Positions 45,336 to 49,952 of a stretch of 64,000 nt of DNA are shown here, piece after piece (position 1 is the stretch's first letter; every line of letters begins with the position of its first letter). The notes under the pieces were generated by a model. It saw only the letters and a list, made by a program, of their open reading frames with translations. It did no database searches and was not told the DNA's origin. The DNA comes from Marinobacter sp. ATCH36 (GTDB lineage: Bacteria > Pseudomonadota > Gammaproteobacteria > Pseudomonadales > Oleiphilaceae), in assembly GCF_023555055.1 (NCBI RefSeq), contig NZ_JAMJPL010000001.1:1364001-1428000 (forward strand), written 5' to 3'. Position numbers and translations under genes: made by a program.

Positions 45336-45436
45336 TTTTTCTCACCTGTTTTCGTTCGTGTGTTCAGTAGCTTACGCCTGTCTGGCCGGAAAGTTCACAA
45401 AAACTTCATGATCAAAAACTGGACAAATCTTAAAAA

Positions 45437-45452
45437 TGGGAATAAATTCCCA
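45437..45452. promoter_or_regulatory. TGGGA-N6-TCCCA operator, site 1
   Basis: TGGGAAT-AA-ATTCCCA is a perfect 16-bp palindrome 98 bases before the first DUF5666 gene. It is one of three sites with the same arms and spacing. Confidence 0.7.
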
Positions 45453-45462
45453 ATTAGCAGTT

Positions 45463-45478
45463 TGGGAAAATAATCCCA
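45463..45478. promoter_or_regulatory. TGGGA-N6-TCCCA operator, site 2
   Basis: TTGGGA-N6-TCCCAA begins 26 bp after site 1 and 87 bases before the first DUF5666 gene (the stated span is the TGGGA-N6-TCCCA core). Confidence 0.7.
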
Positions 45479-45549
45479 ATAAAGAAAAATATTACCAACC
45501 GGCTGCACTCCGCGGCCGGTATTCCGGAAAGAATGAAAGGAGAACAACG

Positions 45550-47007
45550 ATGAAGCGCAATCCTTTGGCAAACGCTGTAAAACTCGCCCTGACCGGCGCG
45601 ATTGCAGGGTCCCTGGCTGCCTGTGGCGGCGGTGGTTCTGGCTCGTCTGGTAGTGACTCTACGTCCACTGGTACCAGCGTCGGTGCGGTTACCGGTTTTG
45701 GCAGTGTGTTTGTAAACGGCACCCGGTTCGAGACCAGCGGCAATGTCGACAGTGACGACGGCATTGAGCGGGAAGATCAGCTGGAAAAAGGCATGATTCT
45801 CCAGGTCAAAGGCGACTGGGATGACCGGGGCGAGGGCCGAGCAGACAAGGTCAGCTATGACGACACACTCCGTGGGCCTGTTGCCGGCATGAGCTGGAAC
45901 GAGACCGACCGTACCGGAACCCTTGCCATGCTTGGCCAGAACATTGAGTTGGACGGTCGCACCGTCTTTCGTGGTGCAACGCCTGCCGAGCTTGCCAGCA
46001 ACCCTCAGGGCTACCACGTGCGCGTCAGTGCCTGGCGACTGGATGATGGCAGCTTCCGCGCCAGCTTCGTTGGTGCCCGGGCTATCGATGTTGAATTTGA
46101 TGACGACAACGAGGTCGAGATTGAGGGCGTTGTAGCCAACCTGGACACAAGCGCAGAAACCTTCACCATCAACGGATTCCAGATCGACTACACCAGTGCT
46201 GTAGGAGATGACGACTTTTCTCTGAGTGATCTGGCCAACGGAATCGTTGTAGAAGTTGAGGGTCGTCTGAGCAACGGCGTCATTCTCGCTGATGAAATTG
46301 AAGACGAAGATGACTGGTATGACGACGATGACGATGTCGAGATTTCTGGCAGCATTTACGACTACGACTCGTCAAACCGTCAGTTCTCTCTCAATGGAGT
46401 AACGGTTCAGATTACTGGTGGCACCGAGTTTGATGACCTGCGTGAAAGCAGTCTGGCTGATGGTCTTTATGTCGAAGTTGAGGGCAATTTCCGTAATGGC
46501 ATTCTGGTGGCAGAAGAGATTGAGGGCCGCGAATCAGACGCTGAATTGGAAGGCCGCATCGAATCCATTGATCTGACTGATGAATCCCTGGTAGTCAGCG
46601 GCGTTCGGGTGCAGATCAATGCCAATACCCTGATTGAGGACGATGATGACGATGATCGCCGCAGCCGGGCTGAGGACATTCAGGACTTGCGGGTAGGTGA
46701 TTACCTGGAAATTGAAGGTCGCCAGCGGAGTTCCAACGGAGGCTTCCTTGAGGCGCTCAACATTGAACGTGACGACGACGATGACGATGAGTACGAGCTC
46801 GAAGCCCGGGCGAGCGCAATTGGCTCAAACTCCATCTCTATTATGAACCTGGAGATCCTCCTGAATGGGTACAGCACCTCGGGTGCAAAGGTTGGCGATG
46901 AAGTGGAAGTGGAGTACCGCGGAACCAGTGGTGGCCAGTACGAGCTTACCGACAACGTCGATGTCGATGATGATAGCGACGACGATGACGACGATGATGA
47001 TAATTGA
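45550..47007 (+). CDS. DUF5666-repeat lipoprotein, acidic
   Basis: The 485-residue protein has a lipoprotein signal peptide with cysteine 25 in SLAACGGGG, then the DUF5666 signature VTGFGSVFVNGTRFET (about residues 48-63). Four or five related beta-strand units follow, each with a VEVEG or EIEG strand and a hydrophobic V-NG-V strand. Asp/Glu content is extreme, with runs such as DWYDDDDDVE and a C-terminal poly-Asp tail. It is probably anchored to the outer membrane and may bind Ca2+; that is inference. AAAGGAGA precedes the ATG. Two TGGGA-N6-TCCCA sites lie upstream, and a paralogue is encoded at 48378-49952. Confidence 0.85.
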   Translation: MKRNPLANAVKLALTGAIAGSLAACGGGGSGSSGSDSTSTGTSVGAVTGFGSVFVNGTRFETSGNVDSDDGIEREDQLEKGMILQVKGDWDDRGEGRADKVSYDDTLRGPVAGMSWNETDRTGTLAMLGQNIELDGRTVFRGATPAELASNPQGYHVRVSAWRLDDGSFRASFVGARAIDVEFDDDNEVEIEGVVANLDTSAETFTINGFQIDYTSAVGDDDFSLSDLANGIVVEVEGRLSNGVILADEIEDEDDWYDDDDDVEISGSIYDYDSSNRQFSLNGVTVQITGGTEFDDLRESSLADGLYVEVEGNFRNGILVAEEIEGRESDAELEGRIESIDLTDESLVVSGVRVQINANTLIEDDDDDDRRSRAEDIQDLRVGDYLEIEGRQRSSNGGFLEALNIERDDDDDDEYELEARASAIGSNSISIMNLEILLNGYSTSGAKVGDEVEVEYRGTSGGQYELTDNVDVDDDSDDDDDDDDN

Positions 47008-47070
47008 TCACTAAACCGTTGAGTCAGGCCGGGAAACTCCGGCCTGACCTTCTGGCTTTTGACGTCGCTA

Positions 47071-47086
47071 TGGGAATACAATCCCA
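47071..47086. promoter_or_regulatory. TGGGA-N6-TCCCA operator, site 3
   Basis: The palindrome ends 3 bases before the ATG of the DUF6502 gene and contains TACAAT, a good -10-like hexamer. There is no Shine-Dalgarno in between, so the mRNA may be leaderless and the site would cover its promoter. Confidence 0.7.
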
Positions 47087-47089
47087 AAT

Positions 47090-47947
47090 ATGACAAAGTC
47101 CAACACCAATCCCCTGCATCGGGCGCTGTATCGCATTCTGCGCCCCATGGCACGCTTGCTGCTCCGCAACGGCATTCCGTTTGCCGAGTTTGCGGAACTG
47201 GTCAAGCGTGCGTATGTGGATGCCGCCATGGAAGATTTCTCTGACCAGCGCAAAAAGCCGACGGATTCCCGCGCAGCGGTAATGACGGGGCTTACCCGCA
47301 AGGAAGTGAAAAAACAGCGTGAGATTTTGGCAGGTGAACATGAAGGTAATCGTGGTGCGAGGCATGAAAATCGTGCTTCACGGGTGGTTTCCGGTTGGGT
47401 TCACGACGCCGCATTCCAGACCAGTGATGGCCAGCCTGCACAATTGCCGTTTGACGGCCCGCTGAGCTTCAGCGAACTGGTAAAACGCTACAGCGGAGAT
47501 ATGACGCCACGGGCGGTTCTGGAAGAGCTACTTCGGGTAGGTGTTGTGGCAACGGAAGGTTCGGGACATCTGGAGTTGCGCCAAAGGGCCTATGTGCCGA
47601 TCGGTGACAGCGAAGAAATGCTCCAGATCTTCGGCGAGGACGTATCCGATCTTATAGCGACCATTGATCATAATCTCACAGGGAGCGAAGCCGACAGCCA
47701 GCCCCTGTTTCAGAGAACACTGGTATACAACAACATACCTCCGGAAGTCATGGCACGCTGGCGCCGTTTCGCGGCGCAACAGGCCCAGTCCATGCTCGAG
47801 CAGATGGACAAATGGCTTGGTCCCCATGACCGGGACATCGCCAGCCATGGCGAAGGCAAGTCCGAGGGGGATGCGGTAAGAACCGGAGTGGGAATTTTCT
47901 ACTTTGAAGAACCGGTTCAGCCAGATATCGATGGAGAACAGAAATGA
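47090..47947 (+). CDS. DUF6502 protein, putative DNA-binding regulator
   Basis: The 285-residue protein starts with the family pattern LHRALYRILRPMARLLLRNGIPFAEFAELVKRAYVD. Residues about 58-77 (SRAAVMTGLTRKEVKKQRE) look like a helix-turn-helix with a recognition helix. The middle part has a second helical module ending LELRQRAYVP, and the C-terminal third resembles an uncharacterised ligand or dimer domain. DUF6502 has no assigned function. Its position between two DUF5666 genes and the operators at 45437-45478 and 47071-47086 suggest that it controls the cluster. The start codon directly follows operator 3 with no visible Shine-Dalgarno. Confidence 0.75.
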   Translation: MTKSNTNPLHRALYRILRPMARLLLRNGIPFAEFAELVKRAYVDAAMEDFSDQRKKPTDSRAAVMTGLTRKEVKKQREILAGEHEGNRGARHENRASRVVSGWVHDAAFQTSDGQPAQLPFDGPLSFSELVKRYSGDMTPRAVLEELLRVGVVATEGSGHLELRQRAYVPIGDSEEMLQIFGEDVSDLIATIDHNLTGSEADSQPLFQRTLVYNNIPPEVMARWRRFAAQQAQSMLEQMDKWLGPHDRDIASHGEGKSEGDAVRTGVGIFYFEEPVQPDIDGEQK

Positions 47948-48339
47948 CAAATTCCGGAGTCTGTTCACACACCGGACACTGCTGGCAGCCAACCGAGCTG
48001 GTCATTACGCTTCTATCCGCCAGCGCAAGAGAAGTGGTCCGACAATGGATCAGCTGCAATCGGTTTCTGGATGCCAATAACGAACCCACGCTTCTGTCCA
48101 CGGCAAGTACAGAAAAGACTGGTTTTACGGCTCTCGTCAACCAGGTGAATTGTGACCTTGCGCCGGCTGTCATTTTTAATGAATTACTTCGTAAGGGAAT
48201 TGTCGAACAGCATGAAAGTGGCTGCCTTCTGCTACGCCGCAGCGCCTATGTTCCGGACCTGCCATATAAGGGCGATGCCTTCGCAATGACAGAAGAGCCG
48301 GAAGTGGCTCCTCGCAGACGCCGTAACGATCAAATATAA
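47944..48339 (+). CDS. shortened DUF6502-like paralogue
   Basis: The 131-residue protein aligns by eye with the middle of its upstream neighbour: EVVRQWISCNRFLDAN and FNELLRKGIVEQHESGCLLLRRSAYVP match RVVSGWVHDAAFQTSD and LEELLRVGVVATEGSGHLELRQRAYVP. It lacks the N-terminal helix-turn-helix and the C-terminal third. It has four cysteines, three of them early (C7, C13, C43). Overlap with the upstream stop is ATGA, so translation is coupled. It may be a modulator or dominant partner of the longer protein. A decayed gene is possible, but the frame is intact. Confidence 0.7.
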   Translation: MTNSGVCSHTGHCWQPTELVITLLSASAREVVRQWISCNRFLDANNEPTLLSTASTEKTGFTALVNQVNCDLAPAVIFNELLRKGIVEQHESGCLLLRRSAYVPDLPYKGDAFAMTEEPEVAPRRRRNDQI

Positions 48340-48377
48340 ATAATGTTGGCCCCGTCGCTGGCCAGGGAGAAACATAC

Positions 48378-49952
48378 ATGAACCCGAAATCCATCCAATC
48401 AGCTACCCGATTCTCGTTGAGCGCATTGGCGATTGGCGTCCTTGCGGCCTGCGGCGGAGGCGGTGGAAGTGGGGACAGCATTGGTGTCGCCGATGGCGGC
48501 ATCCGCGGGACTGGTTCCAGCGTTGGGCCGGTTTCCGGGTTTGGTAGTGTGTTTGTGAATGGGGTTCGGTTTGAAACGGATGGCAACGTCACAAGCGATG
48601 ACGGCATCACGATAGAAGATGAGCTCAGCGAGGGAATGATTCTGCGCATAGAGGGCGAATGGCGCGAGGATGATCAGGGTACGGCGGACGAGGTCGAGTA
48701 TGACGATACGCTTCGGGGTGTTATTGATGATGTGTCTTTGGGAACCTCGAGCACTGATGAACTTGTAGAATTAACGGTGCTTGCCCAGACAGTCGTTGTT
48801 ACAAGACGAACCGTCATTGAGGGGATGACTTTCGATCAGCTTCTTCAGGGTAATGGTGAAGAGACCAGCATCAGGGTCAGTGCATGGCGCCAGGTCGACG
48901 GCAAATTCCGTGCAAGTTATCTCGGTGTTATTGCGGATACGGCAGAAGATGTTGAACTCGAAGGAGCCATTGACCAGAACTCAATTGAGGACGGCCGCTT
49001 TACCATCAATGGTGTCGAAATAAACTACGATGCTGCTGTTGATTTTGAAGGCGGTCTCTCTCCGGATGACCTCCAAGAAGGCGTATTTTTTGAAGTTGAG
49101 GGGGATTTCTCATCAGGAGTCCTTCTGGCGCGACAGATCGATAGAGACGATTTTCGACGGTACCAGCAGGGTAGCAGTGAGGGGGATATTGAGTTTACCG
49201 GTACGATTCAGCAACCGTTCGTGTCATCCGGAGGCGGAAATCAGATCGGTGAGTTCTCTGCCAGCGGCCTGACGGTTCAGGTTTCCGATGAAACTGAGTT
49301 TGAGGATGGGCTCACTCCCAGCGATCTTACAGAGGGAATCCTTGTGCAGGTGGAGGGACAGTTCGATTCTGCCGGCAATGTCGTGGCAGAAGAAATTGAG
49401 CTGCGTGAGGCCAATGCTGAAGTGGAAGGTGTAATCACGGATGGGTCGATAAACCTGATGACGCGATCTTTTGAGGTAGGCGGTGTAGAAATTCGGGTGA
49501 CGCCTTTAACGATTATTTCTGATGATGAAAATGATGACGACGACCCACGAATTACGCTCGGCGACCTCTTCGACGGTGACGAGTTGGAAATTGAAGGGAT
49601 TGAGCGGATAGAGCGAAGCAACAATGAGAATGTGTTTCTCGAAGCCCTCAGAATCGAGCGTGAGGAAGAGGATGACAACGAGGGTGATGGCGATGAGTCC
49701 GATGGTTTTGAGCTGAAAGGGAAAGTTCGAGACATCGATTTCAATTCAATCACCGTACTCGGCGTAAGGATGTTCGCAGAGAGCAATGCATTTGAGGACA
49801 ACGACCGGTCAAAAATCGAGGAATTATTTAACCCACTAACCGATGAGTTTCCGATTGTTGAGGTAGACTATGAGCCAGCCAATGTAGGACCGTATCCATA
49901 CAGAGCTACGGACATCGAACTCACAGAAGACGACGAAAATGACGATGATTGA
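48378..49952 (+). CDS. second DUF5666-repeat lipoprotein, acidic
   Basis: The 524-residue protein mirrors the one at 45550-47007: lipobox cysteine 25 in VLAACGGGG, the signature VSGFGSVFVNGVRFET, YDDTLRG, VSAWR and several beta repeats with FEVEGDF or VQVEGQF strands. It is rich in Asp and Glu and ends EDDENDDD. CAGGGAGAA precedes the ATG 7 bases away. No TGGGA-N6-TCCCA site lies just before it, and the 38-base gap suggests co-transcription with the DUF6502 pair. Substrate or partner is unknown. Confidence 0.85.
   Translation: MNPKSIQSATRFSLSALAIGVLAACGGGGGSGDSIGVADGGIRGTGSSVGPVSGFGSVFVNGVRFETDGNVTSDDGITIEDELSEGMILRIEGEWREDDQGTADEVEYDDTLRGVIDDVSLGTSSTDELVELTVLAQTVVVTRRTVIEGMTFDQLLQGNGEETSIRVSAWRQVDGKFRASYLGVIADTAEDVELEGAIDQNSIEDGRFTINGVEINYDAAVDFEGGLSPDDLQEGVFFEVEGDFSSGVLLARQIDRDDFRRYQQGSSEGDIEFTGTIQQPFVSSGGGNQIGEFSASGLTVQVSDETEFEDGLTPSDLTEGILVQVEGQFDSAGNVVAEEIELREANAEVEGVITDGSINLMTRSFEVGGVEIRVTPLTIISDDENDDDDPRITLGDLFDGDELEIEGIERIERSNNENVFLEALRIEREEEDDNEGDGDESDGFELKGKVRDIDFNSITVLGVRMFAESNAFEDNDRSKIEELFNPLTDEFPIVEVDYEPANVGPYPYRATDIELTEDDENDDD

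Follow-up and report, generated by a model that had tools for sequence, protein, structure and literature searches.

A protein of the DUF6502 family, encoded in a four-gene cluster of Marinobacter sp. ATCH36, is probably a DNA-binding autorepressor that also represses DUF5666 lipoprotein genes, acting through the palindrome TGGGA-N6-TCCCA, which encloses a predicted -10 box. This reading is based on sequence comparison and structure prediction. The mRNA of the DUF6502 gene is, by the same kind of evidence, likely to be leaderless. The cluster lies in a stretch of 64,000 nucleotides (nt) that was analysed as a whole (the window; positions 1,364,001 to 1,428,000 of contig NZ_JAMJPL010000001.1, forward strand), and coordinates are those of the window. 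The four genes, LIP1, DUF6502, the short gene S and LIP2, are co-directional on one strand, and they are listed here with the candidate operators and the predicted promoter of LIP1 (aa, amino acids).

45420..45448, + strand: predicted sigma-70 promoter of LIP1, TGGACA (45420-45425), 17 nt, TAAATT (45443-45448, within O1)
45437..45452, no strand: candidate operator O1, TGGGAATAAATTCCCA, exact palindrome
45463..45478, no strand: candidate operator O2, TGGGAAAATAATCCCA, exact palindrome, 26 bp after O1
45550..47007, + strand: LIP1, DUF5666 lipoprotein, 485 aa, lipobox LAAC, net charge -81, predicted tandem OB-like domains, without the GGIxGTG tag described below
47071..47086, no strand: candidate operator O3, TGGGAATACAATCCCA, encloses the predicted -10 box TACAAT (47077-47082)
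47090..47947, + strand: DUF6502 protein, 285 aa, proposed autorepressor, predicted leaderless mRNA
47944..48339, + strand: short gene S, 131 aa, resembles the second winged helix of DUF6502 only
48378..49952, + strand: LIP2, DUF5666 lipoprotein, 524 aa, net charge -91, GGIRGTG tag

The product of 47090-47947 matched the DUF6502 profile (PF20112) with 212.4 bits (E 7.2e-63, profile positions 6-264 of 268), above the Pfam curated cut-off of 27 bits that applies to both this family and DUF5666 (PF18914), and was the single DUF6502 match in a search of the 4.29 Mb genome. LIP1 and LIP2 scored 163 and 133 bits against PF18914, in five stretches each and also above the cut-off, and all eight DUF5666 matches of the genome fell within these two genes. 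Both are predicted lipoproteins, with the cysteine of the LAAC lipobox at residue 25. In NCBIfam, DUF6502, S and LIP2 were each without a family, and LIP1 had no match above cut-off. The order of the genes on one strand and the ATGA overlap between the 3' end of DUF6502 and S agree with a preliminary description of this DNA, as does the identity of the first gene as a DUF5666 lipoprotein; the start of LIP1 is the ATG at 45550 and not 45436. S, previously termed a shortened DUF6502 paralogue, does resemble the second winged-helix stretch (profile 89-164 only) but scored 19.2 bits, below the cut-off, while S-like short genes in other Marinobacter genomes reached up to 33 bits.

TGGGA-N6-TCCCA occurs exactly three times in the genome, at 45437, 45463 and 47071, and all three copies are inside the cluster. 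Two of them lie before the first gene, as previously described; the third, which had been assigned to the third unit, belongs to the promoter of DUF6502, the second gene, where O3 ends 3 nt before the ATG (4 nt when counted from the GGGA-N6-TCCC core). The earlier term 'self-contained' holds for the genome studied and not for other genera.

An AT-core form of the site, TGGGAWWNNWWTCCCA, was counted across 124 Marinobacter genomes. It was present in all 68 genomes with a full-length DUF6502 gene, in two of nine with the short gene only and in two of 47 with neither. Exactly three copies were found in 55 of the 68 genomes and one, two or four copies in the other 13. The exact palindrome stood just before DUF6502 in 68 of 68, and the distance between core and ATG, measured at 67 sites (one site was beyond the limits of the script), was 4 nt in 63, 5 nt in three and 3 nt in one. 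An exact O1/O2 pair was present in 61 loci, with a spacing of 26 bp in 43, 25 bp in 12, 27 bp in five and 24 bp in one. DUF5666 adjoined DUF6502 in 67 of the 68 loci; 63 had it both before and after DUF6502, four on a single side, and the one remaining locus had none. The possibility that the palindrome is a general Marinobacter repeat was rejected, as the AT-core form is hardly found outside genomes with DUF6502. A loose form of the pattern occurred 0-9 times per genome, both with and without DUF6502 (mean 5.0 vs 1.5). Another palindrome, TGGGACAAGGTTCCCA, was seen repeatedly in Marinobacter genomes (G001, G002, G010, G011, G017 and G019), whether or not they have DUF6502, and is probably an unrelated site.

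Beyond the genus, a class sample of 369 genomes was divided into 99 with a DUF6502 match and 270 without. The AT-core form was present in 50 of the former vs 24 of the latter (Fisher P=7e-17, kinship uncorrected). One locus each was then taken from 60 of the 99 genomes, mostly higher-scoring ones. DUF5666 lay beside DUF6502 on the same strand in 49 of these 60 loci, with one or more of the matches weak. An exact core was found in the 600 nt preceding DUF6502 in 31 loci, vs 0-3 loci for eleven other arms at the same spacing; inclusion of sites before the upstream DUF5666 gene raised the count to 39. A scan of named genomes, limited to the best 80 of 393 loci, gave 74 loci, including other phyla, once six repeats of class loci had been dropped. 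DUF5666 was beside DUF6502 in 70 of the 74, and 61 had the core, which was less than 400 nt from DUF6502 in 55 and stood only before the upstream DUF5666 gene in six. By record label, 19 of the 21 nitrospirotal loci and 13 of the 18 desulfobacterial/deltaproteobacterial loci had the core; the named records are mostly metagenome-assembled genomes, so single taxon assignments may be wrong. Overlap of the DUF6502 stop with the next start (ATGA, GTGA or TTGA) was seen in 74 of the 134 class and named loci. Adjacency of the two families and a palindrome ahead of either DUF6502 or the first DUF5666 gene in the cluster are conserved in most loci of all three sets, and neither outcome that the preliminary description named as refuting it was observed. 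Its proposal of DUF6502 as a DNA-binding protein that regulates acidic lipoproteins gains support from co-occurrence of palindrome and DUF6502, from recurrence in other phyla, from sites before unlinked DUF5666 genes and from the position of the conserved motif TG[LI]xRKEV within a predicted helix-turn-helix. As far as sequence can tell, the pattern of DUF6502 and palindrome is broader than had been proposed.

The position of the palindrome relative to predicted promoters points to repression. Operator columns of the Marinobacter alignment carry about 2 bits, most of the columns around them far less, and CTGGACA before LIP1 is conserved. The reading of O1 and O2 as -35 and -10 overlays of one promoter (TTCCCA-N16-AATAAT) was judged less likely than TGGACA-N17-TAAATT because TGGACA is conserved in the genus. 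The Marinobacter DUF6502 promoter has the -10 hexamer TACAAT and a partly conserved -35. Alignment of 49 distinct starts with the core 3-5 nt before the ATG (46 of them DUF6502 genes, judged by reading the listed N-termini) gave the consensus ttgac, about 17 nt, attTGGGAaTAta.TCCCAAa and ATG. With a -10-like hexamer inside the palindrome, the RNA would start at or beside the ATG, and the predicted -10 box of DUF6502 is placed as for transcription that begins at the start codon. If leaderless autorepression is true, operator, -10 box and start codon would be fused in one element of about 25 bp that recurs in several phyla.

DUF6502 would bind the palindrome through the predicted helix-turn-helix with TG[LI]xRKEV and, since the operator covers the -10 box, its binding would exclude RNA polymerase. 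The DUF6502 mRNA would start at or within a few nt of the ATG and would also carry S and LIP2, with LIP1 transcribed from its own promoter, which has a second operator downstream. A signal that relieves repression would then lead to production of the regulator and the acidic lipoproteins together. In the Marinobacter genome studied the regulon would be the cluster itself; in other genera it would extend to DUF5666 genes that are not linked to the cluster and might include some further envelope genes. Binding of DUF6502 might alternatively activate transcription, or both activate and repress, for example by aiding polymerase at O1/O2 of LIP1, where the paired operators, 24-27 bp apart, could allow cooperative or looped control. 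However, the palindrome of DUF6502 promoters overlies the predicted -10 box and nearly reaches the ATG. This fits occlusion and not activation from an upstream position, and activation is considered unlikely. As an inverted repeat near a start codon, the palindrome could also work at the RNA level (a 5' hairpin, terminator or attenuator) instead of binding a protein. The -10-like hexamer inside the palindrome means that the predicted start leaves O3 untranscribed, and GGGA/TCCC was specific among the arms tested at the same spacing. A hairpin or terminator was rejected on account of the position over the -10 box, and action in RNA is regarded as extremely improbable.

Forty stretches around operator-like sites judged to be away from DUF6502 were inspected, taken among the sites listed, with at least one site in a DUF6502 genome (G199) left out. 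An unlinked DUF5666 lipoprotein gene directly followed the site, with no DUF6502 in the stretch, in eight of 26 stretches from DUF6502 genomes. The same was true of one of 14 stretches from genomes without a DUF6502 match, and this one came from a genome that is 81 % complete and has a genus-mate with DUF6502. The background of 26 sites in 270 genomes without DUF6502 implies that chance would account for about ten of the 83 sites seen in genomes that have it. Another DNA-binding protein might recognize the palindrome, with DUF6502 merely one of its targets; binding by DUF6502 is itself a prediction, and the sites in class genomes without a DUF6502 match would fit such a protein. Against this, the AT-core site is nearly absent from Marinobacter genomes without DUF6502, the studied genome has no site outside the cluster, site and gene occur together in several phyla, and the sites in genomes without a DUF6502 match precede DUF5666 in a single stretch. 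Recognition by another protein is thus very unlikely.

Two further sets of distal sites were observed. Operator-like sites in L331, L332 and L340 stand before two beta-propeller lipoproteins and an MtrC/MtrF-like multi-heme cytochrome lipoprotein. In L320, L338 and L351 the site lies between a divergent gene pair of which one member is a 4Fe-4S pyridine-nucleotide oxidoreductase, and one of these genomes has no DUF6502 match. The partner gene had no Pfam match where tested (L320 and L351), and in a fourth genome (L349) one flanking gene resembles, by eye, this other member of the pair. The divergent oxidoreductase pair gives a hint of redox control.

Several results count against DUF6502 as an autorepressor acting at this palindrome. 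The strict site is missing from 49 of the 99 class genomes with DUF6502 and is present in 24 class genomes without a match. No exact core was found near the cluster in 21 of 60 class loci and 13 of 74 named loci, and both samples are biased to top scores (largely higher-scoring loci in the class and the best 80 of 393 in the named set). When one mismatch was allowed, 41 of the 60 class loci had a core near DUF6502, but 13 control arms then gave 3-15. A generic promoter scan of the region performed at chance level (three found vs 3.3 expected), so the promoter claim rests on conservation, and the -35 of the Marinobacter DUF6502 promoter matches TTGACA poorly. The model of the DUF6502 protein has middling confidence (predicted local distance difference test 77, predicted template modelling score 0.64) and weak structural matches. 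Finally, 18 of the 26 distal stretches of DUF6502 genomes contain no DUF5666 gene.

Variation in the recognition helix was compared with operator presence in the class loci. RR or RV replaced RK in four of the 20 loci that have no exact core up to 2.2 kb upstream vs one of 40 with a core, which is suggestive only of recognition-helix variation tracking operator loss. In L205, a DUF6502 relative with a divergent recognition helix has a GGGG/CCCC palindrome (TTGGGGTATACTGCCCCAA) before its ATG. This locus offers a natural case for testing specificity.

A short motif, here called the tag, was found in the protein encoded downstream of DUF6502. In LIP2 its codons are the following.

48495..48515, + strand: GGIRGTG tag codons of LIP2, the sole match of back-translated GGIxGTG in the genome

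The motif G[IVLMTFA]xGTG was searched for within the first 130 residues of the frame downstream of DUF6502 in 188 callable genes, after exclusion of eight duplicate loci and 12 without a callable gene. It was present in 165 of the 188 (64 of 65 Marinobacter, 62 of 68 named and 39 of 55 class genes), with a looser form in 17 and none in six. Among upstream DUF5666 lipoproteins the tag was found in one of 77 (a lipobox was found in all 77; two were left out), and nine unlinked DUF5666 lipoproteins encoded next to an operator all lacked it, the nearest being GGIGGTA in L348. Third bases of the tag codons vary across loci, so selection acts on the protein.

The tag is kept whatever the fold of the downstream protein (DUF5666 repeats, Calx-beta/fn3 or unclassified lipoproteins). 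DUF5666 was not beside DUF6502 in 11 of the 60 class loci. In seven of these (L186, L189, L190, L195, L197, L202 and L206) the next gene after DUF6502 encodes a lipoprotein-like exported protein, two of which have Calx-beta and fn3 domains, and the seven proteins share with LIP2 the motif G[I/V/L/M/T]xGTG after the signal sequence. Other genes directly follow DUF6502 in L188 and L201, and L191 and L204 yielded none to judge. The class was also searched for the tag at the DNA level, and 31 of the stretches were inspected; in nine the tag either followed a signal-like sequence or lay close to the N-terminus encoded by a gene adjoining DUF6502, and the other 22 were set aside as looking like chance or unrelated matches. 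It is conceivable, though doubtful, that DUF6502 and the exported protein that follows it form a two-part device with the tag as its working part, a handle for sorting, processing or return signalling, in which DUF6502 would report what becomes of the tagged protein and adjust expression of the untagged DUF5666 lipoproteins to match. The tag points to a possible unrecognized envelope sorting or signalling signal.

The DUF6502 model was divided into a predicted helix-turn-helix (residues 31-83), a second winged helix (95-163) and C-terminal helices (175-251). Its best structural match was the cyanobacterial transcription factor HetR (PDB 3qod, 4j00 and 4yrv), a weak match (root-mean-square deviation 9.9 A, TM-score about 0.3) and below the level that shows kinship. 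A PDB sequence search with the DUF6502 profile gave no chain below E 0.1, and one match at E 0.22 is not meaningful. The closest known systems include helix-turn-helix domains of the DeoR, IclR/PcaR and sigma-factor types and, on the side of the lipoproteins, CusF, RPA/SSB, PriB and PilY2, most of which we take to be of the OB-fold class. LIP1 differs from these in its acidic character, its lipobox and the arrangement of several predicted domains of this kind in tandem, and no ligand is implied by the likeness; Foldseek also returned many DDB1 chains at similar E-values. Autoregulated local repressors have an operator that overlaps their own promoter. The DUF6502 system resembles this class in its small regulator gene and in a predicted operator over its own and adjacent target promoters. 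It differs in the tight coupling of operator, -10 box and likely leaderless start, a combination found again in several phyla, and in its coupled target, a tagged exported protein.

A literature search returned no paper on DUF6502/PF20112, including binding tests, within a coverage in which subscription papers are poorly represented, so that absence is unproven. DUF5666 appeared in four papers, each of which mentions it in one table row or sentence, and PF18914 in one. Nothing was found on GGIxGTG with a lipoprotein or on leaderless autorepression with a lipoprotein, in a scope that leaves out most subscription papers. Two widespread families without described function gain a joint, testable candidate role as regulator, operator and regulon, and the operator can be searched for in genomes to find further targets.

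The short gene S lies downstream of DUF6502 in 34 of the 68 Marinobacter loci. In nine other Marinobacter genomes (L135-L143) it is kept in place without full-length DUF6502 and both lipoproteins. Three of the nine retain DUF6502 fragments, one of these also a LIP1 fragment, and the exact operator is retained in two. Because S persists without full-length DUF6502 and the lipoproteins, it may have a role of its own. One further feature lies between LIP1 and DUF6502.

47023..47048, + strand: GC-rich hairpin, seen in the sequence and without a hit in a terminator scan

This hairpin is a possible terminator of the LIP1 transcript. The cluster is flanked by what we take, from sequence likeness, to be cbpA/cbpM-like genes on one side and a nitronate-monooxygenase-like gene on the other; the cbpM-like gene has a MerR_2 match in Pfam.

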